Assembly (NCBI GenBank): GCA_903931355.1
Contig: CAIZCB010000311.1
Span: forward strand, 1-17,159
Direction of reading: 5' to 3'
Length of the DNA: 17,159 nt
From: an uncultured Pseudomonadota bacterium
Lineage (GTDB): Bacteria; Pseudomonadota; Gammaproteobacteria; Methylococcales; Methylomonadaceae
The first letter of the stretch is position 1. Every line of letters begins with the position of its first letter. The notes beneath the pieces were generated by a model. It did not search any database and was not told where the DNA came from. It saw nothing but the letters and a program-made list of their open reading frames with translations. Made by a program: the position numbers and the translations under genes. Below are positions 911 to 16,943 of this stretch, in pieces.

Positions 911-958
911 AACATCCTCTATAAACAATGTTGGTATTTACCAACTTTCCTATTCGCC

Positions 959-1768
959 TTATTTGACAGTTTGTTTAGGCGGGTAATATTGGTCGTAATC
1001 TAAAGTGAATCGATAATCTTCAATTAATTGAAAGTTTTTCTCTCTATGTCTATGAAGAACGACGCTAATATCCCAAGGTTTGCTAAATACATTTGGGTCT
1101 TCAATAGTGGCTTTATATTCAATAGTATTGGCATCGAGGAATGTCCATTTCTCTATAACGTGTAAGGCATCACTATGAAAATTACCGGCTCGGTCTAACC
1201 AAGTTTTGTCATTAAAATGCTTAACATCGACAACTAATGTCTCACCTTCCCAATGCGCTCTTGAATCACCTAACCACCAATCATTTGGGTCATCTGGGTG
1301 TTCAGTACCATTGGTATAAATAGTTCTAACTGAATGCCCAAATTGATGAACTAAGGTTAAATCCTGATTACGCTGAAAAATTTGAAATGGCTCAGGGTAA
1401 TAAATGCCACGAGGCACACCGAGGGTATAAACTTTTAAAGCCGGATCAGCGGTTAATCGAGCATCAAAGTTTTTCTTTTTTTGTTCCAAGGCTTTCGGTA
1501 AATACGGCAATAAACCACCGTCAACAATACCGGGGCCAGGTGGCGCATCTTTGCGATTTGAATGTGGCTCAAGATCATAATCAGCCGCACTTGTGGTTTG
1601 CCAAATACCGGAAAAATCCGGTTTTCCATTGCTTAATTTCGGAATTTTTTTATCTGCAGCGAATGCTGAACCAGCTATTGCTGATACTAAAAATATACTT
1701 AGTGCTAATTTAGCGGCATAACTAAAACCAACCGTGGTTTTAGTCGATTTTATGATTAATGTATTCAA
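959..1768 (-). CDS. Exported protein of unknown function with GDSRAHWEG motif
   Basis: A 269-residue protein with a Sec signal peptide (cleavage near AFA/AD, about residue 37). The mature protein opens with NGKPDFSGIW (residues 47-56) and carries GDSRAHWEG at 167-175, followed by ETLVVDVKHFNDKTWLDRAG. This motif set marks a family of soluble, presumably periplasmic proteins that I recognise but cannot name functionally. The start appears to be TTG: an AAGGAG Shine-Dalgarno (1777-1782) lies 8 bases upstream, and no in-frame ATG occurs near the signal peptide. It begins 39 bases after the DUF6152 stop and ends 48 bases before the next gene, so it is the middle gene of a three-gene operon. It is a paralog of the protein at 1-910. 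Confidence 0.88.
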   Translation of the reverse strand: MNTLIIKSTKTTVGFSYAAKLALSIFLVSAIAGSAFAADKKIPKLSNGKPDFSGIWQTTSAADYDLEPHSNRKDAPPGPGIVDGGLLPYLPKALEQKKKNFDARLTADPALKVYTLGVPRGIYYPEPFQIFQRNQDLTLVHQFGHSVRTIYTNGTEHPDDPNDWWLGDSRAHWEGETLVVDVKHFNDKTWLDRAGNFHSDALHVIEKWTFLDANTIEYKATIEDPNVFSKPWDISVVLHRHREKNFQLIEDYRFTLDYDQYYPPKQTVK

Positions 1769-1807: not shown

Positions 1808-2236
1808 TTACAGTGGCGCAGGTGTTGGCTGTGTTGCCGGTGCATCTTGCGCACCACCGGTTTGAACGCTGCTACCATCAGGTAATTTAGTGGTGACGGC
1901 ATAACCAAAGTTTTTACCGCTTTTGGCTCTAAAACCTTGGATAGTAATTTCTGTCGAAGGGGTTAAGGTTTTTTTAGTAATCCCTTTTTCTTTTAGATTA
2001 AATGGCGCACCAAATTCAAAACCCCAGTTAGCCACCGTACCATCTGGCTGTTTAACATCTAAATAAAGCCAACTGTGTGGATTAACCAATTCAAATTTAG
2101 TGACCACGCCTTTCACCTCAACCGGCTGCTCTGCATCAAACTCAGCAGAAAAAGCGTGATGAGCATTAGCAGGTATTGCGATTGACATACCCGCGCTTAT
2201 TAACAAAGTGGTTATTAATTTAGTTTTCATAGGCAT
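1808..2236 (-). CDS. DUF6152-family small exported protein
   Basis: A protein of about 142 residues. The signal peptide ends at ANA, so the mature chain would begin His-His-Ala-Phe. The core includes FDAEQPVEVKGVV, then NPHSWLYLDVK, a DGTVANWGFEFG segment and a final ITIQGFRAKSG beta element, which match the DUF6152 pattern. The C-terminus is an Ala/Pro/Thr-rich tail. I chose the ATG at 2236 because a GAGA sequence lies 6 bases before it. A GTG at 2248 and an ATG at 2230 are alternatives that change only the first residues. It is first in the operon with the two exported proteins downstream and has a sigma-54-type promoter at 2352-2367. The function of DUF6152 is unknown. The exposed N-terminal His pair invites a metal-binding idea, which is only inference. 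Confidence 0.88.
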   Translation of the reverse strand: MPMKTKLITTLLISAGMSIAIPANAHHAFSAEFDAEQPVEVKGVVTKFELVNPHSWLYLDVKQPDGTVANWGFEFGAPFNLKEKGITKKTLTPSTEITIQGFRAKSGKNFGYAVTTKLPDGSSVQTGGAQDAPATQPTPAPL

Positions 2237-2272
2237 CAAAAATCTCACATTTAAAAAATCAATACAGAGGTC

Positions 2273-2483: not shown

Positions 2484-2501
2484 CTGTTGAAATACCAACA
2501 G
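2484..2501. promoter_or_regulatory. Putative activator (enhancer) site A, CTGTTG-N6-CAACAG
   Basis: The plus strand reads CTGTTGAAATACCAACAG, a perfect 6+6 dyad with TGT-N10-ACA spacing. Its centre is about 150 bases upstream of the predicted sigma-54 start at 2341, a normal distance for an enhancer-binding protein. On the minus strand it shares TATTTCAACAG exactly with site B at 4773-4790. A weak terminator hairpin for the receptor gene is an alternative, but related dyads also occur in the divergent region, where no transcript ends. Confidence 0.6.
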
Positions 2502-2548
2502 CAGACAAACATTTGATGCTGAAGCAAGTACAAACAATTTAGTGATAG

Positions 2549-4669
2549 TTAAAAATTAACCGTCACCGTCCCCCTAACCATTCTCGGCTCGACTGGGTGA
2601 CGCATTAAGCCAAACGTCCCCGTTCCGCCATCAGGGCAATTGCTGTTATTCGCTTCACCTTTCATCTGCGAGCAATAGGCATAAGCGAGGTCGCTATTGT
2701 TGGAACCTAATAAATTGAACAAATCAATCTCAAATTTGTAATTTTTCTGTTTGTAGCCAGTGCCAAAATTGACAATATTGGTATCGCCAGCCCAGAAACC
2801 ACCTTGTTGATCAAGCGGCACATGGCCAAAATGCCGCAAACGTAAAGAAGCGAACCAACCTTGTGGATGTTCAATGGTGGCTCCGGTGCTAATAACCCGA
2901 CCAACCGAATTCGGTATCCAGTTATTACCGACAGCTTCATTAGCGTAATGCGCAGAGGTTAAAGCTAAATCAGCATCTAAGGTCAGCCAATTAGTCGGTT
3001 TGTAATAGTTGGTAAACTCAAGCCCATGCCGACGCGATTTACCATTTACCTCGGTGGTTCCTGCATCGCCGACAAACACCAACTCCTGACTACTTTCCAA
3101 ATACCAAAACGCCAGCGTTGACTTTAAACCGGCAATGGCATCGCTGCGTATCCCAACTTCTGCACCGCGCGACCAAGCGGTTGGCTTGATCGGCGAAATG
3201 GTCGAGCCATCAGCTGGATTGAATTGCAAAGTGGTGCCGCGAGCATCATTAGAATGATGACCATAGCCAAGATTTAAAAAATATTCGGTATCTAACCACG
3301 GCCCTGCGATAAAACTCAGCTTAGGACTCATCACCGCTTTACTTTTATTGCCAGAATTGGCTGCGCTCAAATTGGCATCATGCAAAGCGTTGTCGAACAT
3401 CTGTACATCGTTATTGAGCAAGTCGGTTCTAAATCCAGCCACGGTGCGGAATTTTTCTAACCAATGGGTTTGGTTTTGCAGATACAGCCCGACATTACTT
3501 TCGCCGACGTTATAGCGACTGACCCAATCTAAAGACTGTCTGGCTTGGCTATGTTGCAAGCCTAAATCCATAATTTCATCATGCCGAAACTGGATGCCGA
3601 CTGTGTTATCCATTTTCAAACCCCAGAGCGTGGTTTGGCGTTTGTGGTCAAAATTACCGCCAGTTTGTACCCTGCGCTCGCCTTGATGAATCTGATCACC
3701 ATGCACGGGGTCATTCAAATAACCGGTAAAGTTGGAATACAAATCAACGTCATAATAAAGCGCATAAAGATTGGCATCGTTGCGCCAATTGTCGCCCGCT
3801 TGCCAAAAATGACTGGCTAAACTGTAGCGATTCGATTTACCGCCATCAGTAGGATCAATGCTGCCGTAAAGATTGACCGCACCATCATCAATCGCCCGCT
3901 GCGGAATTGGATTAGTCGCATTCCAACTGGCGCTATAGGCTTTGCCATTAACCGAGAAGCCCCAATCATCACGATCTAGGCTATAACGCAAAGTGCCGTT
4001 AAACTTGCCTAAATCTTCTGGTTGCTGCCAAACACCGTCATAGACATTGACCTCACCGGCATACAGCAAATTGCCTTCTCCCAACTGATTCGAGTTCGCC
4101 AACAGCCCACGGTAATAACCAAATTCACCGCCAGTAAACTTGATAATCCCTTGATCGAGCTTTTGCTTGCTAGTCATTTTTGAATAGCCCGCCGCTGAGA
4201 AATCACCGGTTTCGGCATAGTAAGGCCCTTTACCGTATTCAACTTTGTGTACTAACTCGGGAATGATGCTGTTTAAATCCAGATAACCTTGGCCGTGGGC
4301 ATGGGTTGCCATATTCATTGGAATCCCATCCACAACCACCGAAAAATCAGTACCGTGATCAAGATTAAATCCGCGCAAAAAATACTGATTAGCTTTGCCG
4401 CTACCACTATGTTGAGTCGCCAACGCCCCCGGTATTACTTCAACTAACTCACCGGCTCGTGACATCGGACGATATTCAAACTGTGGCTGACCGACTTCGC
4501 CTTGAGATGCTGATCCAGAAACACCCAACAAACTACGCCCTCTGCCACCATGCACTTCTACGGTTGCTAATTCATTAACCTCATCTAGGCTTTCAAGCTC
4601 AGCAACCGCTAAGGCCGGTAAGCCGATTAAACTAATCAGCAATTTTTTGGCAATGGTTCGGAATTTCAT
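2549..4669 (-). CDS. TonB-dependent outer-membrane receptor
   Basis: A 706-residue outer-membrane receptor. The signal peptide spans residues 1-23 (MKFRTIAKK, hydrophobic stretch, AVA/E). A TonB-box-like ELATVEV sits at 33-39. The plug domain spans roughly 65-185, with RAGELVEVIPG, the hallmark NQYFLRGFNLDHGTDFSVVV and DGIPMN. The rest is a beta barrel ending in a C-terminal Phe (VTVNF). A HAH triad at 123-125 in the plug could touch a metal-containing ligand, but that is speculation. The ATG at 4669 is chosen because GAGAGA precedes it and because a longer frame beginning TTG at 4708 would start inside the promoter. It is divergent from the RND operon, and tonB-exbB-exbD is in the same window, so it probably depends on that energiser. 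The ligand cannot be read from the sequence. Confidence 0.93.
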   Translation of the reverse strand: MKFRTIAKKLLISLIGLPALAVAELESLDEVNELATVEVHGGRGRSLLGVSGSASQGEVGQPQFEYRPMSRAGELVEVIPGALATQHSGSGKANQYFLRGFNLDHGTDFSVVVDGIPMNMATHAHGQGYLDLNSIIPELVHKVEYGKGPYYAETGDFSAAGYSKMTSKQKLDQGIIKFTGGEFGYYRGLLANSNQLGEGNLLYAGEVNVYDGVWQQPEDLGKFNGTLRYSLDRDDWGFSVNGKAYSASWNATNPIPQRAIDDGAVNLYGSIDPTDGGKSNRYSLASHFWQAGDNWRNDANLYALYYDVDLYSNFTGYLNDPVHGDQIHQGERRVQTGGNFDHKRQTTLWGLKMDNTVGIQFRHDEIMDLGLQHSQARQSLDWVSRYNVGESNVGLYLQNQTHWLEKFRTVAGFRTDLLNNDVQMFDNALHDANLSAANSGNKSKAVMSPKLSFIAGPWLDTEYFLNLGYGHHSNDARGTTLQFNPADGSTISPIKPTAWSRGAEVGIRSDAIAGLKSTLAFWYLESSQELVFVGDAGTTEVNGKSRRHGLEFTNYYKPTNWLTLDADLALTSAHYANEAVGNNWIPNSVGRVISTGATIEHPQGWFASLRLRHFGHVPLDQQGGFWAGDTNIVNFGTGYKQKNYKFEIDLFNLLGSNNSDLAYAYCSQMKGEANNSNCPDGGTGTFGLMRHPVEPRMVRGTVTVNF

Positions 4670-4703
4670 TTGATCTCTCTTCACTTTAGATAAAAAGATA
4701 ATC

Positions 4704-4719
4704 AGCAAAAATCATACCA
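4704..4719 (-). promoter_or_regulatory. Sigma-54 (-24/-12) promoter of the TonB-dependent receptor
   Basis: The minus strand reads TGGTATGATTTTTGCT. It differs from TGGCACG-N4-TTGCW only by T for C at two positions, with GG-N10-GC exact and a full TTTGCT -12 element. The predicted start is near 4693, leaving a leader of about 24 bases that contains the Shine-Dalgarno of the receptor. GATAATCA at 4697-4704 next to the -12 resembles half of a Fur box, so iron repression could be layered on top. Confidence 0.7.
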
Positions 4720-4725
4720 AGTAAC

Positions 4726-4738
4726 AAAAACCTTGATT
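4726..4738 (-). promoter_or_regulatory. Possible IHF site between activator sites and receptor promoter
   Basis: The minus strand reads AATCAAGGTTTTT, matching WATCAANNNNTTR at 12 of 13 positions. Sigma-54 promoters often use IHF bending between enhancer and promoter, and this lies in that interval. The motif is degenerate and the DNA AT-rich, so this is weak evidence. Confidence 0.25.
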
Positions 4739-4757
4739 TTCCGCATAAACACTAATA

Positions 4758-4768
4758 ACTGAATCAGT
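4758..4768. repeat. 11-base palindrome ACTGAATCAGT
   Basis: A perfect 5+5 palindrome around a central A, in the divergent region between the receptor promoter and site B. It may be an operator half or a chance palindrome; no function is assigned. Confidence 0.3.
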
Positions 4769-4772
4769 CACT

Positions 4773-4790
4773 CTGCTGCTATTTCAACAG
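4773..4790. promoter_or_regulatory. Putative activator site B, CTGCTG-N6-CAACAG
   Basis: CTGCTGCTATTTCAACAG matches the CTGTTG-N6-CAACAG dyad at 11 of 12 fixed positions. Its centre is about 89 bases upstream of the predicted receptor start and about 110 upstream of the RND operon start, so it could serve both. It lies 32 bases (about three helical turns) from site C, so both sites would face the same side of the DNA. Confidence 0.55.
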
Positions 4791-4804
4791 CCACCATGCA
4801 ACCT

Positions 4805-4822
4805 GTGTTCGCCGACCAACAC
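4805..4822. promoter_or_regulatory. Putative activator site C, GTGTTC-N6-CAACAC
   Basis: GTGTTCGCCGACCAACAC keeps the TGTT-N8-AACA core intact with the same spacing. As an inverted repeat it extends to TGTGTT-N8-AACACA at 4804-4823. The centre is about 77 bases upstream of the predicted RND operon start and about 120 upstream of the receptor start. Confidence 0.5.
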
Positions 4823-4846
4823 AACCACCTCACCGCACCATAACAA

Positions 4847-4859
4847 AATCAAACACATA
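4847..4859 (+). promoter_or_regulatory. Possible IHF site just before the RND operon promoter
   Basis: AATCAAACACATA matches WATCAANNNNTTR at 12 of 13 positions and lies between site C and the -24 element at 4865. The evidence is weak because the motif is degenerate. Confidence 0.25.
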
Positions 4860-4864
4860 GCTTT

Positions 4865-4880
4865 TGGTATAGAAATTGCT
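4865..4880 (+). promoter_or_regulatory. Sigma-54 (-24/-12) promoter of the RND operon
   Basis: TGGTATAGAAATTGCT has GG-N10-GC exact and a perfect TTGCT -12 element. The -24 half (TGGTAT) is the same variant as in the divergent receptor promoter. Transcription would start near 4891, about 85 bases before the adaptor gene. No better sigma-70 pair was seen in this gap. Confidence 0.6.
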
Positions 4881-4974
4881 ATCAATCAAAACACCCGCCG
4901 CATCACAGCAGCCGAAACCATTTGCGTAACGCCAAGGCTTTACTCAACCTGATTTTCTTCTCAACCCATTTGTT

Positions 4975-6246
4975 ATGAGCCCATTGAATCGACCGTCAAC
5001 CACCACCCCATTTCGTAAACTCATCTTGCCTCTATCGTTACTGGCTTTGGCGATTGCCGCCACTGGATATTTTTATAACCCGTTTCATACTGACTCTGAG
5101 AATCCTAAAGCTAAGGATCGTAGCAATGAACGCGGTAACAAACGCGGACGAGATGATGATGCCCCGAGCGCTGTTTCAGTAGAAACCACCAGCCAAGGCG
5201 ATTTCCCAATTTATCTAAATGGTTTAGGCACTGTGACAGCGCTACGCACCGTTGCCGTTAAACCACGAGTGGATGGCGAGCTGGTTAAAGTAGCTTTTAG
5301 CGAAGGTCAGTTAGTAAAAGAAGGCGATTTATTAGCCGAAATTGATCCGCGTCCGTTTCAAGTCCAATTGCAACAAGCCCAAGGCCAGTTATTACGCGAT
5401 GAAGCCTTGTTAAAAAATGCTGAAATCGACCATTCCCGTTACCAAACTTTATTAGAACAAGATTCGATTGCCGCCCAGCAAACCGCAACCCAGCAAACCC
5501 AAGTCAAACAATATCAAGGCACCGTCGAAATGGATAAAGCCTTGGTCAATAACGCCAAACTGCAACTCAGTTACGCACATTTAACCGCGCCGATTGCAGG
5601 TCGGGTCGGTTTAAGACAAATCGACCAAGGCAATATTGTTCACGCTAATGATGCCAACGGTTTAGTGGTGATTACTCAATTACAACCGATTAACGTGGTT
5701 TTCAGTTTGCCAGAAGACAAAATCCAATCGGTAGTGCAACGCTTTCACAGTAATCAAACCGTCAATGTAGTTGCCTTCGACCGTGCCGGCAAAACTCAAT
5801 TAGCCAGCGGCAAGTTATTAGCCTTGGACAACCAAATTGATCCCAGCACCGGCACTTTAAAACTTAAAGCTCAGTTCGATAACAGCGACAACAGCCTGTT
5901 TGCGAATCAATTCGTCAATATTCGGATGCACTTAGACACTTTGCATAATGTCACTTTAATCTCTAGCGCCGCGATTCAACACGATAGCCAAGGGCCGTTT
6001 GTTTATCTGGTTAAGCCTGATCAAACCGTTGAGCAACGCCGCGTGACCCTCGGTGGCACCGAAGGCGACAGAGTGGCGATTTTGGCTAATTTGGCCGCCA
6101 ATGAAAGCGTGGTGATTGAAGGGGTCGATAGATTACGCGATGGCAGCAAAGTCGATGTAGCCCAAAAAGACGGCGTAGCAGTGGCGGCCAGCCCTGATGC
6201 TCAAGCCAAACCCGAAGGCAAATTTCGTAAACGCGACAAACGCTAA
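4975..6246 (+). CDS. mdtA: RND efflux periplasmic adaptor, MdtA-like
   Basis: A 423-residue membrane-fusion protein that bridges the RND pump and the outer-membrane channel. It has an N-terminal membrane anchor at residues 15-33 with no lipobox Cys, then a very charged linker (about 42-62, rich in Arg, Asp, Lys). A barrel/lipoyl segment follows ([30 protein letters not shown], 99-128). Next come an alpha-helical hairpin (about 130-195), the second lipoyl half with [13 protein letters not shown], and the beta-barrel and membrane-proximal domains. The tail is basic (GKFRKRDKR). No clear Shine-Dalgarno precedes the ATG, so translation may be modest or the start imprecise. It is the first gene of a four-gene operon, and the RND gene starts 5 bases downstream. 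Confidence 0.93.
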
Positions 6247-6251
6247 CCGCC

Positions 6252-9200
6252 ATGACCACAGCAAATCCAAAAACGGCATTTAATCCTTCTCGACTGTTTA
6301 TTCTGCGACCCGTCGCTACTTCGTTATTGATGTTAGCGATTTTATTGGTTGGGATTTTGGCCTACCGTTTATTGCCGGTATCGGCTTTACCGCAAGTCGA
6401 TTACCCCACCATTCAAGTGGTGACTTTGTACCCCGGCGCCAGTCCAGAAGTGATGACCTCGGTGATTACCGCGCCGTTGGAACGCCAATTCGGGCAAATG
6501 CCAGGCTTAACGCAAATGTCATCAACCAGCTCGGGCGGGGCTTCGGTGATTACCCTGCAATTTAATCTCAGTCTTGATTTAGATATTGCCGAACAAACCG
6601 TACAAGCCTCGATTAACGCCGCCAGCAATTTTTTACCGAAAGACTTACCGCAAGCGCCGATTTACAGCAAAGTCAATCCCGCAGACACGCCGATTATGAC
6701 GCTGGCGGTCAGCGCCAGCGCCCTGCCCTTGTTTAAAGTTGAAGATTTAGTTGATACTCGTTTGGCGCAAAAAATCGCCCAATTGCCAGGTGTGGGTATG
6801 GTCAGCATCAGCGGCGGCCAGCGTCCAGCGGTGCGGATTCAAGCCAATCACAAAGCCCTAGCCGCTTATGGCATCAGCTTAGAAGATGTTCGCACCGCGA
6901 TTGCTGCCGCCAACGTCAATCAACCCAAAGGCATGTTCAACGGCCCGTTGCGTTCAGCCACCATCGACAGCAACGATCAATTGCGCTCAGCGGATGAATA
7001 TCGCGATTTAGTGATTGCCTATCGCAACGGCGGCCCAGTGCGATTGTCGGAAGTGGCGCAAGTGGTTGATGGTGCGGAAAACGTCCGCTTAGCAGCTTGG
7101 GCCAATGATAAAGCGGCGGTGATTGTCAACATTCAGCGCCAGCCGGGGGCGAATGTGATTGAAGTAGTGGACAGAATTAAGAAATTATTGCCAAAACTAC
7201 AAGCCGCTTTACCCGCCAATATCGAAGTCGAACCGCTCAGCGACCGCACGGTCACTATCCGCGCTTCGGTACATGATGTGCAGTTTGAATTATTCCTCGC
7301 TGTCGCCCTGGTGGTGATGGTGATTTTTTTGTTTTTACGCAATATCCCCGCCACCATTATTCCTGGGGTTGCGGTGCCGTTGTCGTTGATTGGTACTTTC
7401 GCGGTGATGTATCTGGCCGAGTTCAGTATCAACAACCTGACTTTAATGGCCTTAACCATCGCCACGGGTTTTGTGGTCGATGATGCGATTGTGGTGATTG
7501 AAAATATTTCGCGCTATATCGAGCGTGGCGAATCAGCGTTTAAAGCGGCGTTGAAAGGCTCCGAGCAAATCGGCTTTACCATTATTTCGCTGACTTTTTC
7601 ACTGGTGGCGGTGCTGATTCCCTTGCTGTTTATGAGCGATGTAGTCGGGCGTTTATTCCGAGAATTTGCCATCACTTTAGCGGTGTCGATTTTAATTTCC
7701 GCCATTATCTCGCTGACTTTAACCCCGATGATGTGCGCGAAACTATTACGCCAAGGCGTTGAGCATCATCAACAAAAAGATGGCTGGTTTGAAGGTTTAA
7801 TTGCCGGTTATGGCCGCAGTTTGCAATGGGTGATGCGTCATCAGACTTTAACCATGGGCGGTTTCTTGGTCACTGTGGCTTTAACAGTGGCTTTGTATGT
7901 CTTTATTCCCAAAGGCTTTTTCCCAATCCAAGACACTGGCTTGATTCAAGGCTATTCGGAAGCGCCGCAAAATATCTCGTTCAGTGCCATGGCTGATGAA
8001 CAGCAACAATTAGCCAGTTTGATTCTGCAAGATCCAGCCGTGGCAAGTTTGTCTTCATTTATTGGCGTCGATGGGATTAACACCACCCCAAACAGTGGCC
8101 GTTTTTTAATCAATCTAAAGCCATTGGCTCAACGCGATGCTAACGCCAGCCAAGTGATTAGCCGACTAAAATCCAAACTTAGTGAGCATTCGGCGATTAA
8201 TTTGTATCTGCAACCGGTACAAGATTTGACCATGGAAAACCGTGTCAGCCGCAGCCAATATCAATTCACTTTAGAAACCGCCGACATCGAACAGCTCAAT
8301 CTTTGGACTAAGCGTTTGGTCGATGAATTAGCCGAGCAAGCGGTGTTTGGTGATGTGGTTAGCGATGTTCAAGATCAAGGCCGACAGGTGTTTGTTAACA
8401 TCGACCGCAGCACCGCCAGTCGTTTAGGCGTCAGTACCGCAGCGGTTGATAATGCTTTATACAGCGCCTACGGTCAGCGTTTGATTTCGACTATTTTTAC
8501 TCAAGCCAATCAATATCGAGTGGTGTTAGAAGTCGATCCAGAAGCACAAAACAACCCACAATCGCTGAATGATTTGCGTGTGCCTTCCAGCAACGGTAAC
8601 CAAGTGCCTTTGTCAGCTATCGCCACTATTTCCGAACGCCCCACCCCTTTAGCGATCAATCATCTCGATCAATTTCCCGTTGCCACGGTGTCATTCAATT
8701 TAAACCAAGGCTTTGCCTTGGGTGATGCAGTGAAAGCGATTGAACAAGCCAAACAGGACATCGATTTACCGTTAAGCATCCGCAGCAGTTATCAAGGAGC
8801 GGCGCTGGCGTTTGAAGCCTCATTAGGCAACACCTTATGGCTGATTTTGGCAGCAATAGTCACGGTTTATATCGTCCTCGGTGTGCTTTATGAAAGTTAT
8901 ATCCACCCCATCACTATTCTTTCTACCCTGCCCTCGGCTGGGGTCGGGGCTTTATTAGCCTTGCTAGTATCGGGCGATGACTTAGGGATTATCGGCATCA
9001 TTGGCATTATTTTGTTGATTGGGATTGTTAAGAAAAACGCCATCATGATGATCGACTTCGCTTTAGAAGCCGAACGCAAACAAGCAATGCCGCCTGCTGA
9101 AGCGATTTTCCAAGCCTGTTTATTACGATTTCGGCCAATTTTAATGACCACCCTCGCCGCCTTGTTAGGTGCTTTGCCGTTAATGCTGGGCAGTGGGGTT

Positions 9201-9386
9201 GGCTCGGAATTGCGTCATCCTTTGGGGATTACTATGGTCGGCGGTTTATTAGTCAGTCAATTGCTGACTTTGTACACCACACCAGTGATTTATTTGTGGA
9301 TGGATAACGCTGCAAAACGGGTCGCCAACTGGCTGAAATTGAATCAGCCAAGTGCATCTGAACACGATGACGAGGAGGTGATTTAA
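6252..9386 (+). CDS. mdtB: RND multidrug efflux transporter subunit, MdtB-like
   Basis: A 1044-residue inner-membrane proton-driven exporter with 12 membrane segments and two large periplasmic loops. It opens [25 protein letters not shown] and closely follows enterobacterial MdtB through signatures such as [20 protein letters not shown] and [12 protein letters not shown]. The proton-relay acids are Asp410-Asp411 in [15 protein letters not shown], and the relay lysine is in [16 protein letters not shown] (Lys927-928). Known MdtB works with MdtC in a mixed trimer. It begins 5 bases after mdtA, and its TAA overlaps the ATG of mdtC by one base. In E. coli these pumps handle bile salts and other amphiphiles, and related pumps have been linked to siderophore export; the substrate here is not known. 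Confidence 0.95.
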
Positions 9387-12300
9387 TGAATTTTTCAGCG
9401 ATTTTTATCCAGCGTCCGGTTGCCACCAGCTTACTGACTTTGGCGATTGCTTTAGCCGGTGGCTTGGCGTTTTTCAATCTGCCGGTATCGTCGTTGCCTC
9501 AAGTCGATTTTCCGACCGTCAACGTCCAAGCCCAATTACCTGGCGCCAGCGCCGAAACCATGGCCGCCACGGTTGCCACGCCGTTGGAACGGGCTTTAGG
9601 CCGAATCGCTGGCGTCACTGAAATGACGTCTAGCAGTTCGCAAGGCTCGACCCAAATCACCTTGCAATTTGATTTGGAACGCGACATCAACGGCGCTTGT
9701 CGCGATGTACAAGCGGCAATCAATGCCGCCGCCAGCCTGTTACCAACCGGAATGCCAAATCGCCCGACTTACCGCCGCGACAATCCCGCCGACTCGCCGA
9801 TTTTGATTTTGGCGTTAACCTCAGAATCACAAAGTCGCGGTCAAATGTACGATGTTGCCTCGACGATTTTGGCGCAGAAAATCTCGCAATTACCGGGCAT
9901 CGGCCAAGTACAAATTGGCGGCGCAGCCTTGCCTGCGGTGCGAGTTGAGTTAAATCCCAACGCCTTAACTAAATATGGCATTGGTCTGGAAGATGTTCGT
10001 AACACCATCACCCAAACCAATACCAACCAACCGAAAGGAGTGATGGAAGACGGCGCTCAACGCTGGCAAGTTCAAGCCAATGATCAAGCCCGCAAAGCCG
10101 AAGATTATTTGCCGCTAATCGTTAGCTACCGCAACGGTTCGCCAGTCACCATTGCTGATTTGGGCAATGTCGAAAATTCGGTGGAAGATTTGCGTAACAC
10201 TGGCTTAAAAAACGGCAAGCCATCGGTGTTATTAATTTTGAGAAAACAACCGCTGGCGAATGTGATTCAAACCGTTGATCAAGTCCAAGCCATGTTGCCA
10301 CAGTTACGGGCCTTAATTCCTGAGGATATTGAGTTATCAGTGGTGGTAGATAGATCACTAACGATTCGCGGCTCGATTGCCGAAGTTGAACACAGTTTAT
10401 TGATTGCGATAGGTTTAGTGATTTTAGTAGTGCTGTTATTTTTGCGAAATGTCCGTTCGGCATTAGTACCGATTATTGCGATTCCGGTATCGTTAATCGG
10501 CGCTTGTGGGGTGATGTATTTTTTAAATTACAGCTTAAACAATCTGACTTTAATGGCGCTGACTATTGCTACTGGCTTTGTGGTCGATGACGCGATTGTG
10601 GTTTTGGAAAATACCAATCGTTATATTGAACAAGGCATTAAACCGTTTAAAGCCACCCTCTTAGCGACTAAAGAAGTCAGCTTTACTGTGATAGCAATGA
10701 CGGTGTCATTAGTAGCGGTATTTTTGCCGATTTTGTTGATGGGCGGTGTGGTTGGACGCTTGTTTAGAGAATTTGCAGTGACTTTATCGGCTTCGGTACT
10801 GGTGTCGTTGCTGATTTCTTTAACCGTCACGCCGATGCTGTGCGCCCGTTGGCTGGAAAAAGAGACTGATCAGCATGGTCGATTTTTTACTTTAATCGGT
10901 GATGGCTTTGACTGGCTTCAAAATGCTTATCAAAGCTCGTTGTGCTGGGCATTGAATCATAGCCGAACCATGATGCTGATTTTGTTAGCGACAATCGGCT
11001 TGAATGTTTTTCTATACAGCAAAATTGATAAAGGCTTTTTTCCTAATCAAGACGGCGGGCGATTACAGGGCGAAATCCAAACCGACCAAGGCGCTTCGTT
11101 TTGGTCATTACAAAACAAACTAGCCGAGCTATCGGATGTCTTGCTCAAAGATCCAGCGGTCAGCACCGTTGCTGGCTTTGGTGGCTCCGGTAGCGGTGCT
11201 AATAGTGCCCGCTTGTTTGTGGTGTTAAAACCGCATGATCAAAGACCACCGATTAATGAAGTGATGCGGCGTTTACGGGAACAAGTCAGCCGCATTCCTG
11301 GCGCTAATTTACACATGACACCCTCACAAGAATTGCGAATTGGTGGACGACAATCCGCCGGCAGTTATGACTATAGCCTGCAATCGGATGATTTAGGTTT
11401 GTTGCGGGAATGGCTGCCGAAAGTGGTAGCGGCTTTATCGAAGTTACCGGAACTTAACGATGTCAGCACCAGCCAGCAAGACAAAGGCCAACAAATCGGC
11501 TTGGTGGTTGATCGTGATATGGCCTCGCGCTATGGCATCACTCAAGCAATGATTGATAGCAGCCTGAATGATGCGTTTGGCCAACGTCAGGTATCGGTGA
11601 TTTATAACCCTTTAAACCAATATCGAGTGGTGATGGAATTAGCGCCGGAATATTGGCAAAGCGCCGAGGCATTGAAACAGGTGTATATCAACGTGCCGGC
11701 CAGTAATTCGGCAACTGGCGAAGCGATCAGCGCTAAACAGGTGCCTTTATCGGCTTTAGCAAGTTTTTCACCGACTAATGCGCCGTTATCGGTGAATCAT
11801 CAAGGTCAATTTGCGGCGGCTAGTTTGTCATTTAATTTACAAACCGGTGTGTCACTATCGACCGCGACCGCTTTGATTGAAAAAACCATGCAGGAAATTG
11901 GCGTACCTAGCTCAGTGCAAGGCAGTTTCCAAGGCTCGGCCAAAGCCTTTCAAGAATCGTTACGCAATCAGCCATTTTTGCTGTTAGCGGCGTTATTGAG
12001 CATTTATCTGGTGCTGGGGATGTTGTACGAAAGTTACATTCATCCATTAACGATTTTATCCACCCTGCCCTCAGCTGGGGTTGGCGCTTTGTTAGCCTTA
12101 ATGATCTGTGATAAGGAATTTAGCATCATCGCCTTGATTGGCGTGATTCTGTTGATTGGTATTGTTAAGAAAAACGCCATCATGATGATAGACTTTGCCC
12201 TTCAAGCCGAGCGAGAACAAGGTTTGGATTCGCGAGAAGCGATTTTTCAGGCCTGCCTGTTACGCTTTCGACCGATTATGATGACTACTCTAGCTGCATT

Positions 12301-12511
12301 GTTCGGCGCCTTGCCGTTAGCACTGGGTAGCGGTTATGGCGCAGAACTGCGTCAACCTTTGGGGATTACCATTGTTGGCGGTTTGATTTTTAGTCAAATG
12401 CTGACTTTGTACACCACCCCCGTGGTTTATCTGTACTTGGATCGTTTCCGGTTGTGGTCACATAACCGTTTGTTTAACCGCACCGCTTCCCGAGCGGGCA
12501 AACCTGCTTAA
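9386..12511 (+). CDS. mdtC: RND multidrug efflux transporter subunit, MdtC-like
   Basis: A 1041-residue RND transporter, paralogous to the preceding subunit but clearly of the MdtC type: [40 protein letters not shown] and GRIAGVTEMTSSSSQGSTQI. The relay acids are Asp401-Asp402 ([18 protein letters not shown]), and the lysine is in [17 protein letters not shown] (Lys928-929). No catalytic residue is missing, so both subunits could carry protons. The start is the one-base-overlapping ATG behind a strong GAGGAGG (9372-9378), which ensures coupled expression with mdtB and suits a mixed trimer. The C-terminus is basic and cytoplasmic. Confidence 0.95.
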   Translation: MNFSAIFIQRPVATSLLTLAIALAGGLAFFNLPVSSLPQVDFPTVNVQAQLPGASAETMAATVATPLERALGRIAGVTEMTSSSSQGSTQITLQFDLERDINGACRDVQAAINAAASLLPTGMPNRPTYRRDNPADSPILILALTSESQSRGQMYDVASTILAQKISQLPGIGQVQIGGAALPAVRVELNPNALTKYGIGLEDVRNTITQTNTNQPKGVMEDGAQRWQVQANDQARKAEDYLPLIVSYRNGSPVTIADLGNVENSVEDLRNTGLKNGKPSVLLILRKQPLANVIQTVDQVQAMLPQLRALIPEDIELSVVVDRSLTIRGSIAEVEHSLLIAIGLVILVVLLFLRNVRSALVPIIAIPVSLIGACGVMYFLNYSLNNLTLMALTIATGFVVDDAIVVLENTNRYIEQGIKPFKATLLATKEVSFTVIAMTVSLVAVFLPILLMGGVVGRLFREFAVTLSASVLVSLLISLTVTPMLCARWLEKETDQHGRFFTLIGDGFDWLQNAYQSSLCWALNHSRTMMLILLATIGLNVFLYSKIDKGFFPNQDGGRLQGEIQTDQGASFWSLQNKLAELSDVLLKDPAVSTVAGFGGSGSGANSARLFVVLKPHDQRPPINEVMRRLREQVSRIPGANLHMTPSQELRIGGRQSAGSYDYSLQSDDLGLLREWLPKVVAALSKLPELNDVSTSQQDKGQQIGLVVDRDMASRYGITQAMIDSSLNDAFGQRQVSVIYNPLNQYRVVMELAPEYWQSAEALKQVYINVPASNSATGEAISAKQVPLSALASFSPTNAPLSVNHQGQFAAASLSFNLQTGVSLSTATALIEKTMQEIGVPSSVQGSFQGSAKAFQESLRNQPFLLLAALLSIYLVLGMLYESYIHPLTILSTLPSAGVGALLALMICDKEFSIIALIGVILLIGIVKKNAIMMIDFALQAEREQGLDSREAIFQACLLRFRPIMMTTLAALFGALPLALGSGYGAELRQPLGITIVGGLIFSQMLTLYTTPVVYLYLDRFRLWSHNRLFNRTASRAGKPA

Positions 12512-12527
12512 TTTTGCCGAGATTTGC

Positions 12528-14021
12528 ATGAGCTTTCGCCTTAAACCTTTAGTTGTCGCTCTATTTGCCAGCCAATTAACCGCCTGCGCCGTCGGGCCAG
12601 ATTACATCCGCCCTCAAGCACCCGTTGCCACCGAGTTCAAAGAAGTCAAAGGCTGGAAAACCGCGCAACCGCGTGACACGGCAATCAGCGGTCAGTGGTG
12701 GGAAATTTTCAACGACCCCAAATTAAACGAACTTGAATCACAGGTCGCCAGCAATCAATCCTTGATTCAAGCCGAAGCGCAATATCGCCAAGCGCAAGGT
12801 TTGGTGCAATCGGCGCAATCATCGTTACTGCCAGTGTTTAATCTAAACGGCAGCTTCAATAACTTTAAGTCGGCACAAGGCCAAACTCAGGTTATCAGCG
12901 GGGTGCGCACCTTATTTGGTAATACGGTTGCAATGGCTTGGGAACCGGATTTATGGGGCAAAGTTCGCCGACAAATCGAAGCTAACACCGGCAATGCTCA
13001 AGCCAGTGCTGCCACCTTACAAGCCTTGCGTTTGTCGATTCAAAGCAATTTAGCAGTGGCTTACTTTCAGTTAAAAGTGCTGGATGCACAAAAAACGTTG
13101 CTGGATGAAACCGTCGCCGCCTATCAAAAAACCTTGGACATCACTAAAAACCGCTATGCGGTCGGCGTGGTAGCCAAGGCTGATGTGGTTCAAGCTGAAA
13201 CCCAATTGCAATCAGCCAAAGCGCAAGCGATTAATTTAGGTGTTCAACGGGCTAAGTTGGAACATGCAATTGCGGTTTTGATTGGTAAATCGCCCGCTGA
13301 ATTATCGTTAGCAGCCAGCGCTTTAACTACCCAAGCACCCGTGATTCCGCTGTCTTTACCGTCAGAATTATTAGAACGACGCCCCGATATTGCCGCCGCT
13401 GAACGTAAAGTCGCGGCGGCTAATGCGCAAATCGGCATCGCCAAAGCCGCTTATTTTCCGACTTTAAATCTAGCGATGAGCAATGGTTTTCAGTCTACCG
13501 ATGTCGGCGATTTATTCACCGTTGCCCGCCGTTACTGGGCATTTGGCCCTGCCGCTGCGGCGCTGACTGTGTTTGATGGTGGGGTTAAAAACGCCCAATA
13601 CAATCAAGCCATTGCTGGCTTTGATGCCAGCGTTGCGGCTTATCGACAAGCGGTGTTAACCGGTTTTCAAGAAGTTGAAGACAATCTAGCGGCAATGCGG
13701 ATTTTAGAAGAGCAAGCGCAAGTTCAGAATCAGGCTGTCGCCTCAGCTAATCAGGCATTGGCACTGACCAATAATCAATACCAAGCCGGCACCGTTAGCT
13801 ATTTAAACGTCATGACCGCGCAAACTGCGGCTTTGTCTAACCGCCAAACCGCCGTGCAATTACAAGGTGATCGCTTGAATGCAGCGGTGTTGTTGGTGAA
13901 AGCCTTGGGTGGTGGCTGGAATGAAACGTTGATGCCAACCGAAGAACAAGCGGCTGGGGACAGAAAATGGACTGATTATTTGATTTTGCCAGTGGATACG
14001 ATTGGGGAGTGGGTTGAGTAA
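12528..14021 (+). CDS. Outer-membrane efflux factor, NodT-family lipoprotein
   Basis: A 497-residue TolC-like trimeric channel. It has a lipoprotein signal with lipobox LTAC (Cys20) followed by the family signature AVGPDYIRP, then two homologous outer-membrane-efflux-protein repeats. The ELLERRPDIAAAERKVAAANAQIGIAKAAYFPTLNL block (starting about residue 279) is characteristic of this family. It starts 16 bases after mdtC with only a weak GAG Shine-Dalgarno. E. coli mdtABC lacks a dedicated channel and uses TolC, whereas this operon supplies its own, as in the Pseudomonas MdtABC-OpmB arrangement. It completes the tripartite pump. Confidence 0.93.
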   Translation: MSFRLKPLVVALFASQLTACAVGPDYIRPQAPVATEFKEVKGWKTAQPRDTAISGQWWEIFNDPKLNELESQVASNQSLIQAEAQYRQAQGLVQSAQSSLLPVFNLNGSFNNFKSAQGQTQVISGVRTLFGNTVAMAWEPDLWGKVRRQIEANTGNAQASAATLQALRLSIQSNLAVAYFQLKVLDAQKTLLDETVAAYQKTLDITKNRYAVGVVAKADVVQAETQLQSAKAQAINLGVQRAKLEHAIAVLIGKSPAELSLAASALTTQAPVIPLSLPSELLERRPDIAAAERKVAAANAQIGIAKAAYFPTLNLAMSNGFQSTDVGDLFTVARRYWAFGPAAAALTVFDGGVKNAQYNQAIAGFDASVAAYRQAVLTGFQEVEDNLAAMRILEEQAQVQNQAVASANQALALTNNQYQAGTVSYLNVMTAQTAALSNRQTAVQLQGDRLNAAVLLVKALGGGWNETLMPTEEQAAGDRKWTDYLILPVDTIGEWVE

Positions 14022-14057
14022 GATAAAGGGATTGTTCTAGTCCGACAAAAAATTACC

Positions 14058-14063
14058 TATAAT
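14058..14063 (+). promoter_or_regulatory. Sigma-70-like -10 (TATAAT) of the toxin-antitoxin pair
   Basis: A perfect TATAAT lies 35 bases before the antitoxin ATG, within the 76-base gap after the outer-membrane factor gene. The -35 is poor (TTCTAG at 17-base spacing). An imperfect dyad TTGT...ACAA at 14032-14048 spans the -35 region and could be the antitoxin's own operator, since such pairs usually repress themselves. Neither a sigma-54 element nor a CTGTTG-N6-CAACAG site is present here. Confidence 0.5.
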
Positions 14064-14097
14064 CAAACAATTGCAGTTTTCTAATAGGAATATCGTT

Positions 14098-14370
14098 ATG
14101 AGCAGCACACCACTTTCAATTCGCTTGCCAGATGAGTTACGCGAAAGTTTAGCGACGATTAGCCGGATTTCACACCAATCTCAATCCCAAATTGCAACCA
14201 AAGCCATCGCAGAATACATCGCCAAACACGAATGGAAACTCAAAGCGATTCAAGCAGCAAAACTAGAAGCGGATAAAGGCGTTTTCATATCCCAAGAAAC
14301 TACCTTGAACTGGCTTGATTCTTGGGGCTCGGACAATGAGCAACCCACACCTTTGCCTGATATTGTTTAA
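14098..14370 (+). CDS. Ribbon-helix-helix (CopG/ParD-like) antitoxin
   Basis: A 90-residue protein whose N-terminus, PLSIRLPDELRESLATISRISHQSQSQIATKAIAEYIAKHEW, fits a ribbon-helix-helix DNA-binding dimer fold: a beta strand (residues 5-9), then two helices. The C-terminal part (ETTLNWLDSWGSDNEQP) is typical of the toxin-wrapping segment. The ATG at 14098 is chosen because an AGGA (14086-14089) precedes it. A longer frame from TTG at 14071 lacks that support. Its stop overlaps the toxin start by one base (TAATG). It should neutralise the toxin and repress the promoter at 14058. Confidence 0.87.
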   Translation: MSSTPLSIRLPDELRESLATISRISHQSQSQIATKAIAEYIAKHEWKLKAIQAAKLEADKGVFISQETTLNWLDSWGSDNEQPTPLPDIV

Positions 14371-14663
14371 TGAAATTCGTTTTACTGCCTTCGGCGAAAG
14401 AAGATTTGGTCGAAATTCGCCAGTATATCCAGCAAGAAAGCCCCGCCGCCGCACGAAATGTAGCTGCACGTATTAAGCAATCCTTACTACTATTGACCGA
14501 GCAACCGCACATTGGTCATCCGACCGATGACGATGAGGTATTGGAATGGCATATTCCCGGATTACCGTATTCAATACCATATCGAATTATGGATAAACAA
14601 ATTCAAGTTTTACGGGTTTTCCATGAGGCACAACACCGCCCTGAATCTTGGTTCGATCACTAA
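14370..14663 (+). CDS. RelE/ParE-family toxin
   Basis: A 97-residue toxin with the ParE layout: FVLLPSAKEDLVEIRQYIQQESPAAARNVAARIKQSLLLLTEQPHIGHP, then a strand region ending in YSIPYRIMDKQIQVLRVFHEAQHRPESW. Family members either poison gyrase or cleave translated mRNA. The ParE-like helical hairpin and the ribbon-helix-helix partner favour the gyrase-type group, without proof. It is translationally coupled to the antitoxin through a TAATG overlap. The first tonB activator site begins only 9 bases after its stop. Confidence 0.88.
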   Translation: MKFVLLPSAKEDLVEIRQYIQQESPAAARNVAARIKQSLLLLTEQPHIGHPTDDDEVLEWHIPGLPYSIPYRIMDKQIQVLRVFHEAQHRPESWFDH

Positions 14664-14671
14664 GTCTATAA

Positions 14672-14689
14672 CTGTTGCCCTACCAACAC
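14672..14689. promoter_or_regulatory. Putative activator site D, CTGTTG-N6-CAACAC
   Basis: CTGTTGCCCTACCAACAC matches the CTGTTG-N6-CAACAG dyad at 11 of 12 fixed positions. Its centre is about 227 bases upstream of the predicted tonB start, and 42 bases (four helical turns) from site E. Confidence 0.55.
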
Positions 14690-14713
14690 CCGCACAACAA
14701 AAAATCCAATCCA

Positions 14714-14731
14714 CTGGTGCTAACACAACAT
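14714..14731. promoter_or_regulatory. Putative activator site E, CTGGTG-N6-CAACAT
   Basis: CTGGTGCTAACACAACAT matches the dyad at 10 of 12 fixed positions with the same spacing. The centre is about 185 bases upstream of the predicted tonB start. With site D it forms a helically phased pair, like B and C in the divergent region. Confidence 0.45.
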
Positions 14732-14881: not shown

Positions 14882-14897
14882 TGGCACAGCTTGTGCT
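14882..14897 (+). promoter_or_regulatory. Sigma-54 (-24/-12) promoter of tonB-exbB-exbD
   Basis: TGGCACAGCTTGTGCT has a perfect TGGCAC -24 half, exact GG-N10-GC spacing and a GTGCT -12 half (one base from TTGCT). Transcription is predicted near 14908, about 74 bases before the tonB ATG. Sites D and E lie upstream at enhancer distances. A sigma-54 promoter is unusual for tonB genes, which are more often sigma-70 and Fur controlled. Confidence 0.7.
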
Positions 14898-14981: not shown

Positions 14982-15770
14982 ATGAGCACACCTTTATCCA
15001 CTTTTAATAAAGCTGAGCGAGAAACTAATTTTTTAAACTGGGAACCGGCCAATGTGCCATTAAACCCAGTGGCTAATGCAATAGCTGCGAATTCGCCCTA
15101 CCCCGCTTTAGCTAATTTCAAATACACCGGCCAAACCAGTGACCACAAACTGGTTGATTATCTGGTCTTGGGCTTGGTGTCGATATTGATCCACGCCACT
15201 GTCGTCGATCATTTTGATCGTTTATCGTTAAGTGAAGAGATTATTCAGCCTGTCGAACAACCACCTAAGGTGATGATTTCGCTGAGCAGACCACAGCCAA
15301 AAACCATTGCCCCTCCACCTAAACTACAGGCCAAGCCACCGACACCTAAAGTCGTCCCGTTAAAACCACAAAAGCCAAAACCAGTTGAAAAAGTGCTGGA
15401 ACAAACACCTGCGCCAGCGCCGGTTGTCGATTCGACTCCAAGCCCAGCGCCAGCTGTGTCATCACCTGCGCCAGTGGTAGAAGAAAAAATTACCGCACCA
15501 GTGGCGGGTGCTGATTATTTACACAACCCTGCCCCTGAATATCCTGAAATTGCCATGGATAGAGGCTGGGAAGGCAAAGTGCTGATGAAGGTTCACGTCA
15601 AACCAGACGGCAAACCGGATGAAGTGTCGGTGATTAAATCCAGCGGCCAGAAAATTCTGGACGATGCGGCAGTAAAAACTGTCAACAAATGGTCTTTCGT
15701 TCCAGCGATGCGTGGCACTACGCCGATTGCTGGTTGGGTTACTGTTCCTATTACTTTTAATTTATCTTGA
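14982..15770 (+). CDS. tonB: Energy-transducing protein TonB
   Basis: A 262-residue TonB. It has an unusually long cytoplasmic N-terminus of about 57 residues, then one membrane helix (about 58-76) containing the SxxxH motif (Ser67, His71) needed for coupling to ExbB-ExbD. A long Pro/Lys/Ala-rich periplasmic spacer (about 88-172) follows. The C-terminal TonB domain includes NPAPEYPEIAMDRGWEGKV, HVKPDGKPDEVSV and AVKTVNKWSFVPA (about 182-262). The start follows CGAGGAC at correct spacing. It is the first gene of tonB-exbB-exbD, and exbB begins 10 bases after its stop. It is probably the partner of the receptor at 2549-4669. Confidence 0.95.
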   Translation: MSTPLSTFNKAERETNFLNWEPANVPLNPVANAIAANSPYPALANFKYTGQTSDHKLVDYLVLGLVSILIHATVVDHFDRLSLSEEIIQPVEQPPKVMISLSRPQPKTIAPPPKLQAKPPTPKVVPLKPQKPKPVEKVLEQTPAPAPVVDSTPSPAPAVSSPAPVVEEKITAPVAGADYLHNPAPEYPEIAMDRGWEGKVLMKVHVKPDGKPDEVSVIKSSGQKILDDAAVKTVNKWSFVPAMRGTTPIAGWVTVPITFNLS

Positions 15771-15780
15771 GGTTACAAAA

Positions 15781-16536: not shown

Positions 16537-16943
16537 TGGCTTTTAAAACTCAAGATGACGGCGATGATGTCATGGGCGAAATCAACGTCACGCCTTTAGT
16601 TGACGTGATGTTGGTGTTATTGGTGGTGTTTATCGTCACCGCACCGTTATTGACTCAAGCAGTGCATGTCAATTTACCTAAAACCGCTGAAACTGCGCCA
16701 CCGGAAGAAAAAGCCGCGGTGTATTTAAGCGTCGATGCCCAAGGCAAAATCTTTATCGACAAACAGGAATATGCGCTGGAAGTCGTGGAAAACGAGTTAA
16801 AAACCCGCAAAGCTGCTGATCCTGAACTAGCGTTAAACCTCAATGCCGATGATGCAGTGCAATATGGAATCGTCGCGAAAGTGATGTCTTCGATTGAGCG
16901 GGCGGGCGTTACTAAACTGGCTGTGCTAACCGCGCCGCAATAA
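16536..16943 (+). CDS. exbD: Biopolymer transport protein ExbD
   Basis: A 135-residue protein with a short cytoplasmic N-terminus, one membrane helix and a periplasmic domain. The motif GEINVTPLVDVMLVLLVVFIVTAPL contains the proton-carrying Asp23. The periplasmic part (about 45-135) has the usual YLSVDAQGKIFIDKQ strand pair and ends AVLTAPQ. A strong AGGAGG (16520-16525) precedes the ATG, which overlaps the exbB stop. It completes the TonB energiser: ExbB and ExbD turn the proton gradient into TonB movement. Confidence 0.95.
   Translation: MAFKTQDDGDDVMGEINVTPLVDVMLVLLVVFIVTAPLLTQAVHVNLPKTAETAPPEEKAAVYLSVDAQGKIFIDKQEYALEVVENELKTRKAADPELALNLNADDAVQYGIVAKVMSSIERAGVTKLAVLTAPQ

Follow-up and report, generated by a model that had tools for sequence, protein, structure and literature searches.

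The stretch of DNA analysed here, referred to throughout as the window, is the 17-kb (17,159-nucleotide (nt)) contig CAIZCB010000311.1 from an uncultured bacterium of the Methylomonadaceae, and it carries a leftward operon that begins with a gene for a DUF6152 protein, a gene for a TonB-dependent receptor, an RND efflux operon divergent from the receptor gene, and a TonB-ExbBD operon. Intergenic dyads resembling CTGTTG-N6-CAACAG (12 fixed bases), each followed by a sigma-54-like promoter element, precede these genes, and our subject is these dyads and the sigma-54 enhancer-binding protein (EBP, an activator) that very probably recognizes them. We call the genome holding the window G000 (2.29-Mb assembly, 84% complete) and a close relative G004 (99% complete); G009 is a further relative. 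The sigma-54 consensus is TGGCACGNNNNTTGCW, and a GG-N10-GC sequence with at least nine of the 12 consensus letters was counted as a sigma-54-like site. The dyads (given without strand), elements and genes are as follows:

2484..2501: dyad CTGTTG-N6-CAACAG upstream of the DUF6152 operon promoter; 0 mismatches, 21.9 bits
4773..4790: dyad CTGCTG-N6-CAACAG, common to the divergent receptor and RND promoters; 1 mismatch, 21.6 bits
4805..4822: weak second dyad GTGTTC-N6-CAACAC, 32 base pairs (bp) from dyad 4773 and likewise common to the receptor and RND promoters; 3 mismatches
14672..14689: dyad 1 of the TonB promoter; 1 mismatch, 15.0 bits
14714..14731: dyad 2 of the TonB promoter, 42 bp from dyad 1; 2 mismatches, 9.8 bits
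2352..2367, minus strand: sigma-54-like -24/-12 element AGGCACGCTATTTGCT of the DUF6152 operon; 11 of 12 letters
4704..4719, minus strand: sigma-54-like element TGGTATGATTTTTGCT of the receptor gene; 10 of 12 letters
4865..4880, plus strand: sigma-54-like element TGGTATAGAAATTGCT of the RND operon; 9 of 12 letters
14882..14897, plus strand: sigma-54-like element TGGCACAGCTTGTGCT of the TonB operon, starting 168 nt past the start of dyad 2; 10 of 12 letters
1808..2248, minus strand: DUF6152 protein, first gene of the leftward operon (Pfam PF19649, E 3.6e-28)
959..1768, minus strand: gammaB (name used here), exported-looking, without a Pfam or NCBIfam match; G009 ortholog 77% identical
2..928, minus strand: gammaA (name used here), exported-looking, cut by the window end, without a Pfam or NCBIfam match; G009 ortholog 79% identical
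2549..4708, minus strand: TonB-dependent receptor (Pfam Plug, PF07715); from the sequence, the ATG at 4669 is the likely start
4975..14021, plus strand: RND efflux operon of a membrane fusion protein (HlyD_D23), two RND pumps (both ACR_tran) and an outer membrane channel (OEP)
14982..16943, plus strand: TonB, ExbB and ExbD operon (TonB_C PF03544, MotA_ExbB PF01618, ExbD PF02472)

All five dyads stand where the initial annotation had placed them, with 0, 1, 3, 1 and 2 mismatches in order of position, and the pair spacings that it gave, 32 and 42 bases, are correct; the distance from dyad centre to predicted start is 76.5–226.5 nt, in agreement with its figure of about 77–227. Its claim that a dyad lies upstream of every sigma-54 site holds for all four intergenic sites; the nine others among the 13 sigma-54-like sites of the window fall within genes. 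Intergenic DNA makes up 7.4% of the window. The raw count of dyads is only mildly raised, with 12 window matches at up to three mismatches versus 7.56 expected, a count reached by 17 of 200 shuffles, and an extra two-mismatch copy at 14490–14507 falls within a ParE gene. Because raw mismatch counts were too weak to decide, they were replaced by genome-wide, comparative and control tests. Three of the nine distinct places in G000 with at most one mismatch fall in the window (binomial P 3e-5), and a reversed-pattern control gave one such place genome-wide versus nine for the dyad. A weight matrix built from EBP promoters of other species was also scored on the window and on 100 shuffles, a comparison that is partly circular because the training sites were picked by similarity to the window's dyad: the dyads at 2484 (21.9) and 4773 (21.6) exceed the best shuffle (17.0) and that at 14672 (15.0) falls short of it, while 14714 (9.8) is outscored by three non-promoter places (4507, 13.7; 15782, 12.9; 5171, 10.5) and 4805 lies outside the top 16 scores of the window. 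The dyads are real; those at 2484, 4773 and 14672 are strong, and those at 4805 and 14714 are weak alone but keep their geometry in relatives.

This conservation is clearest at the TonB promoter. TonB orthologs at 59% identity or more are present in 21 of 37 genomes of the genus, G000 included. With dyads taken at up to two mismatches from CTGYTG-N6-CARCAG and elements at nine letters or more, a dyad was found in all 21 promoters and a sigma-54 element in 20. The 42-bp dyad pair exceeds the threshold in 13 of the 21, in which the element lies 140–169 nt past the start of dyad 2 (42 bp and 168 nt in the window), and the rest have a degenerate partner at the same spacing. A fixed rule, requiring a dyad and then a sigma-54 element at 40–260 nt, was passed by 20 of the 21 promoters versus 1.1% of 6,000 random windows (29 loci of relatives), and by none of 19 receptor homologs and none of nine lower-identity TonB genes. 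In a gap-free alignment of the 21 promoters, some of them from species close to each other, the half-sites carry 1.69 and 1.51 bits per column, the spacers 0.81 and the flanks 0.52, figures in which the half-sites are somewhat favoured because rows were placed by minimizing mismatches. The same alignment (L217–L237) has an extra conserved AACA about 24 nt past the start of dyad 1, possibly a third half-site. The TonB operon of G004, which has this promoter too, sits on a different contig, C9.

At the other promoters of the window, G004 retains the sigma-54 elements of the DUF6152, receptor and RND genes, the latter two identical. Its half-sites at 2484 are unchanged though adjacent bases have changed, those at 4805 are unchanged though the spacer has changed, and the 4773 dyad is present with two mismatches. 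The G009 cluster is syntenic (receptor, DUF6644-type pair, both unnamed proteins, DUF6152, receptor, RND, channel, TonB-ExbBD), and its DUF6152 promoter has the palindromic dyad CTGCTGGAATATCAGCAG and the sigma-54 element GGGCACGATGGTTGCA. Conservation of the dyads in relatives, on which the initial annotation had staked its proposal, is strong at the TonB promoter, extends to G004 and G009 for DUF6152, and is confined to G004 for the receptor and RND genes. Among 29 upstream regions of receptor homologs, only the window's own and that of G004 have the arrangement; the gene neighbours of four of these homologs (L018–L020, L047) differ from the window's, and 19 receptor homologs were then used as the negative control given above. 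Beyond gammaA, G004 (L046, 131–3596) encodes a pair of DUF6644 membrane proteins, a protein with a weak resemblance to cytochrome c' (below the cut-off) and a second TonB-dependent receptor, upstream of which an 11/12 sigma-54 element (1667–1682) lies behind two weak dyads, at 1820 and 1862, 42 bp apart with three mismatches each.

These comparisons bear on whether all five dyads are functional. It is a sizeable though minority possibility, and a refinement compatible with the best explanation, that only the three strong dyads work and that 4805 and 14714 are there by chance, as the rank of 14714 below three non-promoter places and of 4805 outside the top 16 would suggest. The half-sites of 4805 that persist in G004 beside an altered spacer, and the 42-bp partner of dyad 1 in 13 of the 21 orthologs, argue the other way.

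Four strong sigma-54 activator matches were found in G000, namely NtrC (C100), the response regulators C294 and C45, and a receiver-less protein, C340; G004 has five strong EBP matches. The C340 EBP has 375 residues and a PF00158 match (E 1e-69), its AAA+ domain starting at residue 43, with no Pfam match ahead of that domain and no receiver domain. A length of about 370 residues and the lack of a receiver or large N-terminal sensor domain are the hallmarks of SfnR, which was the first lead to the activator's identity. The C-terminal region of the C340 EBP is identical at 16–27 of 48 positions to homologs that lie beside sulfur genes versus 10–13 of 48 to the other EBPs of G000. We regard it as highly probable that the C340 EBP is an SfnR-type activator and that the dyads are its upstream activator sites, the relation to SfnR being drawn from homologs recognized by gene neighbourhood. 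NifA and NtrC were rejected as identities of C340, which scores 319.3 bits versus an NCBIfam NifA cut-off of 528.85 and 301.1 bits versus an NtrC cut-off of 558.6. On the NifA model, the G000 NtrC and C294 score 333.4 and 306.4 bits (cut-off 528.85), and C45 has no nifA row among the NCBIfam matches listed (E up to 1e-90); among those matches, only NtrC of the other three EBPs passes a cut-off, and none passes that of NifA. The proposal of the initial annotation that the dyads are conserved upstream activator sites of a sigma-54 EBP other than NifA is supported, and its description of that activator as undescribed needs amending, since the candidate groups with SfnR and its gene is found in G000. 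The EBP occurs in 23 of the 37 genus genomes, and all 21 genomes with the TonB ortholog are among them (both, 21; TonB only, 0; EBP only, 2, G018 and G021; neither, 14); in G011, G005, G002 and G009 it lies within about 3.3 kb of TonB-ExbBD.

The EBP gene is itself preceded by the same kind of site in relatives. In G000, a sigma-54-like element lies 85 nt ahead of the start of the C340 gene, and ahead of the G004 ortholog (98%) two dyads spaced 32 bp apart stand at -241 and -209, with an element at -84. We scanned 21 EBP loci from other species, among which four are paralogs or homologs at 58–59%. Eight (L073–L080, 84–88% identity) have a dyad pair 32–33 bp apart and a sigma-54 element that starts 68–69 nt past the start of the second dyad, and G051 is a ninth case; L085 has a 32-bp pair with the element at a different distance, L082–L084 have 42-bp pairs between the EBP gene and a divergent TonB operon, and the remaining loci show no such pair followed by an element. 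The dyad pairs in relatives indicate that the promoter of the activator gene itself bears this site. An activator gene with such a site nearby, which the initial annotation had proposed to look for, thus exists in the relatives, the corresponding upstream DNA of G000 being cut by the contig end. As a separate observation, a protein with an ExbB/TolQ-like C terminus (below the cut-off; L104) has dyads and a strong sigma-54 element upstream of its gene in three EBP-bearing genomes (loci L211, L104 and L105), the L211 protein (G051) also having DUF2341 and lectin-like domains; it is perhaps an unnamed member of the same regulon.

The genome scan that the initial annotation had named as a possible refutation has a mixed outcome: the dyad alone is unspecific, and dyad and sigma-54 element together are far more specific. 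The nine G000 places with at most one mismatch comprise three window promoters, five sites inside genes, one of which (C488) has a nine-letter, likewise intragenic, sigma-54 match 184 nt on, and one other exact copy. That copy (G000:C389:4943–4960) is intergenic and conserved at G004:C49:11651–11668, and its sole sigma-54-like element in the right direction, CGGCACCGTTGGTGCA, lies 120 nt on, inside the next gene, and is identical in G004. There, the gene after the C49 dyad precedes a cluster with a CusA/CzcA-family RND gene. G004 has 19 dyad places at up to one mismatch versus six control matches, which makes the dyad alone not specific in this genome; nine of the 13 loci annotated are within open frames, and clear promoter arrangements are those at C12, C79 and C50, with C8:73471 a possible one. 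The composite pattern, TGTTG-N6-CARCA and a sigma-54 element 35–65 nt on, gave 21 matches versus one control match in the 37 genomes, with 20 of the 21 in EBP-bearing genomes, eight preceding an EBP gene and two preceding the window's receptor gene or its G004 ortholog. The TGCTG variant is weaker (17 matches versus five control matches; 14 in EBP-bearing genomes).

Sulfur genes recur around the EBP and its homologs. The G009 EBP, about 3.3 kb beyond exbD, adjoins cysK, a serine O-acetyltransferase gene and a family 2A encapsulin with cysteine desulfurase cargo; no dyad within two mismatches was found ahead of the encapsulin gene. A second EBP copy in G002 is followed by genes that NCBIfam names as sulfate-binding protein (Sbp), CysT and sulfate ABC ATPase and by a CysB-like regulator below the NCBIfam cut-off, and G011 has the same layout of EBP and sulfate uptake. 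In G021 and G051, alkanesulfonate monooxygenase genes stand behind a dyad (three mismatches from CTGTTG-N6-CAACAG) and an element. Farther afield, a Burkholderia pyrrocinia homolog (58.7%) adjoins msuE, sfnG and an SfnB-family gene, with CTGCTGCCTGATCAGCAG and TGGCACGCTCCTTGCG ahead of msuE; a homolog from an Erwinia assembly (50%) is divergent from alkanesulfonate monooxygenase and SfnG genes, with a 32-bp dyad pair and the 11/12 element TGGCACGCTTCCTGCT; and the Pseudomonas sp. CBZ-4 homolog (57%) has an alkanesulfonate monooxygenase gene ahead of it and CTGTTGCCCAGGCAACAG farther upstream, with an element 100 nt on. The Sphingobium homolog (52.8%) sits in a sulfonate cluster, in which a one-mismatch dyad with an element 93 nt on precedes a monooxygenase gene and another strong element stands without a dyad; the Variovorax homolog (61.6%), from an unannotated record, has a dyad and a strong element. 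The gene neighbouring C340 in G000 is of TatA/B type. The methane/ammonia monooxygenase A family is present in the relatives G004, G009 and G010 and was not found in G000, whose assembly is 84% complete; from the genus relatives we infer that the source bacterium is methanotroph-type.

Two further features lie in the window:

14071-14663: ParE-type toxin gene (PF05016) with a likely antitoxin gene, without a Pfam match, before it
17034–17063 and 17077–17106: arms of a perfect 30-base inverted repeat, REP-like, near the window end

The toxin–antitoxin pair separates the RND operon from the TonB promoter, and dyad 1 starts eight bases past the toxin gene.

Taken together, these observations suggest the following model, for which the sites, their geometry and conservation, the co-occurrence and the gene neighbourhoods are read directly from sequence, and in which binding, activation, autoregulation in the source species itself, the signal and the substrate are what we infer. 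The general form TGYTG-N6-CARCA would be the upstream activator site of the SfnR-type EBP encoded at G000:C340, predicted to be a bare AAA+ activator with a short N terminus, no receiver and a Fis-like C-terminal helix-turn-helix. Its dimers would bind single or paired dyads; spacings of 32 or 42 bp correspond to three or four helical turns and so place the paired dyads on the same DNA face. The bound EBP would then loop to RNA polymerase–sigma54 at the -24/-12 elements, so that the receptor, DUF6152, RND and TonB-ExbBD operons may be switched on together. The absence of an obvious sensor domain, with the dyads and sigma-54 element at the EBP promoter in relatives, points to an EBP level that is probably set by positive autoregulation, and the activator would amplify its own synthesis on top of an input of sulfur status (CysB in Pseudomonas). 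Sulfur limitation is the most likely signal, under which the cluster would serve sulfur scavenging.

Several results weigh against this model. The EBP gene lies outside the window, and its G000 contig ends 116 bp upstream of it, so that the self-sites are visible only in relatives, where 13 of the 21 EBP loci lack the 32-bp pair with an element at 68–69 nt. In C340, HTH_8 scores 21.2 bits versus a cut-off of 22. The G009 receptor has a sigma-54 element and no dyad nearby, and the G009 RND genes have a dyad and no element of at least nine letters, which leaves the receptor and RND arrangement unconfirmed beyond the G000–G004 pair. Three of the 21 composite matches (L193, L202, L203) are inside long genes and look like chance, and a second Pseudomonas locus (L114) has no comparable arrangement. 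The association of EBP and TonB across the 37 genomes has a Fisher value of 2e-8, which is overstated because the species are not independent and the two genes are linked in several.

The sulfur signal has a competitor of low probability, in which the same EBP binds the dyads but answers to a different nutrient, perhaps copper, iron or a lanthanide, and the nearby sulfur genes are a legacy of genome history. Metals are the more usual association of TonB and RND systems, the other exact dyad precedes a CusA/CzcA-family RND cluster in G004, and no recognized sulfur enzyme is encoded in the window. A Methylococcus TonB cluster is responsive to a shortage of copper, and a sigma-54 promoter has been predicted for an operon in it (PMC4831470), which adds to the case for such a signal. 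Against it stand the several species in which genes for sulfate uptake, cysteine synthesis, encapsulin with its cysteine desulfurase, or alkanesulfonate monooxygenase lie next to the EBP or have the dyad and element in common with it, together with the sulfur-gene neighbours of SfnR-type homologs in Burkholderia, Sphingobium, Pseudomonas and Erwinia. It is quite unlikely that the dyads serve a different EBP, be it NtrC, one of the response regulators C294 and C45, or a NifA absent from the incomplete assembly: the NifA-like TGT-N10-ACA spacing and the 84% completeness of the genome leave this some room, but G000 has four strong EBPs and the 99% complete G004 five, none of the other three G000 EBPs passes a NifA cut-off among the matches listed, and the dyads track the promoter and the presence of a C340-type EBP. 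That the dyads arose by chance, or are ordinary palindromes with no regulatory role, as the mildly raised raw count reached by 17 of 200 shuffles might suggest, is scarcely credible beside the genus-wide TonB-promoter footprint with its fixed spacing and controls.

If an SfnR-type activator responding to sulfur limitation is the right reading, methanotrophs of the genus might have a dedicated outer-membrane sulfur-scavenging system, made up of TonB-ExbBD, a receptor, DUF6152-type exported proteins and an RND pump and forming one regulon under a self-amplifying, sensor-less SfnR-type activator; we offer this wider proposal tentatively and rate it at somewhat below even. TonB-dependent uptake is usually viewed as the import of iron, B12 or sugars, and the proposal would mean that an organosulfur compound is imported in this way under SfnR control and that such uptake can belong to the sulfur-limitation response of methane oxidizers. 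It would also give a testable function to a conserved, unnamed receptor/RND/DUF6152 cluster, and SfnR-type regulons in other Proteobacteria could be predicted from the operator motif and its geometry, a dyad spacing of 32 or 42 bp with the sigma-54 element at a set distance. A literature search confined to titles and abstract openings, with most subscription journals outside its coverage, found neither a paper that places an SfnR-type regulon in methanotrophs or links one to TonB genes, nor one on organosulfur import by a TonB system under SfnR control; the extension of such a regulon to TonB uptake and RND efflux, an unusual target set, would appear to be new.

Among known systems, NifA upstream activator sequences have the spacing TGT-N10-ACA. 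The dyads share with them the half-site spacing and the activator class, but their half-sites extend to TGYTG/CARCA and the genes are unrelated to nitrogen fixation. In the SfnR system (SfnR1/SfnR2, Pseudomonas sfnFG and msu genes), as in the one predicted here, the sigma-54 activator lacks a receiver and is about 370 residues long; the EBP homologs (50–59%) have sfnG, msuE or alkanesulfonate monooxygenase genes as neighbours, and a dyad and sigma-54 element accompany them. Unlike those of SfnR in Pseudomonas, the predicted targets here include a TonB-dependent receptor, TonB-ExbBD and an RND pump. The sfnR gene of P. putida is reportedly regulated by CysB, to judge from the title of a 2003 paper by Endoh; in contrast, the EBP gene in relatives has a sigma-54 element with its own dyads. 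One study describes raised SfnR1, MsuCDE and SfnG in sulfur-starved P. aeruginosa (PMC12581299). The encapsulin and cysteine desulfurase genes that adjoin the EBP and the cluster in G009 recall the SrpI family 2A encapsulin system, whose Synechococcus SrpI is reported to be induced by sulfur starvation (PMC8049743); that system is cyanobacterial, whereas the link here is one of gene neighbourhood alone. The copper-responsive TonB cluster of Methylococcus capsulatus differs in its multiheme cytochromes and copper response, but it resembles the window in being a methanotroph TonB system with a predicted sigma-54 promoter in the cluster (PMC4831470).

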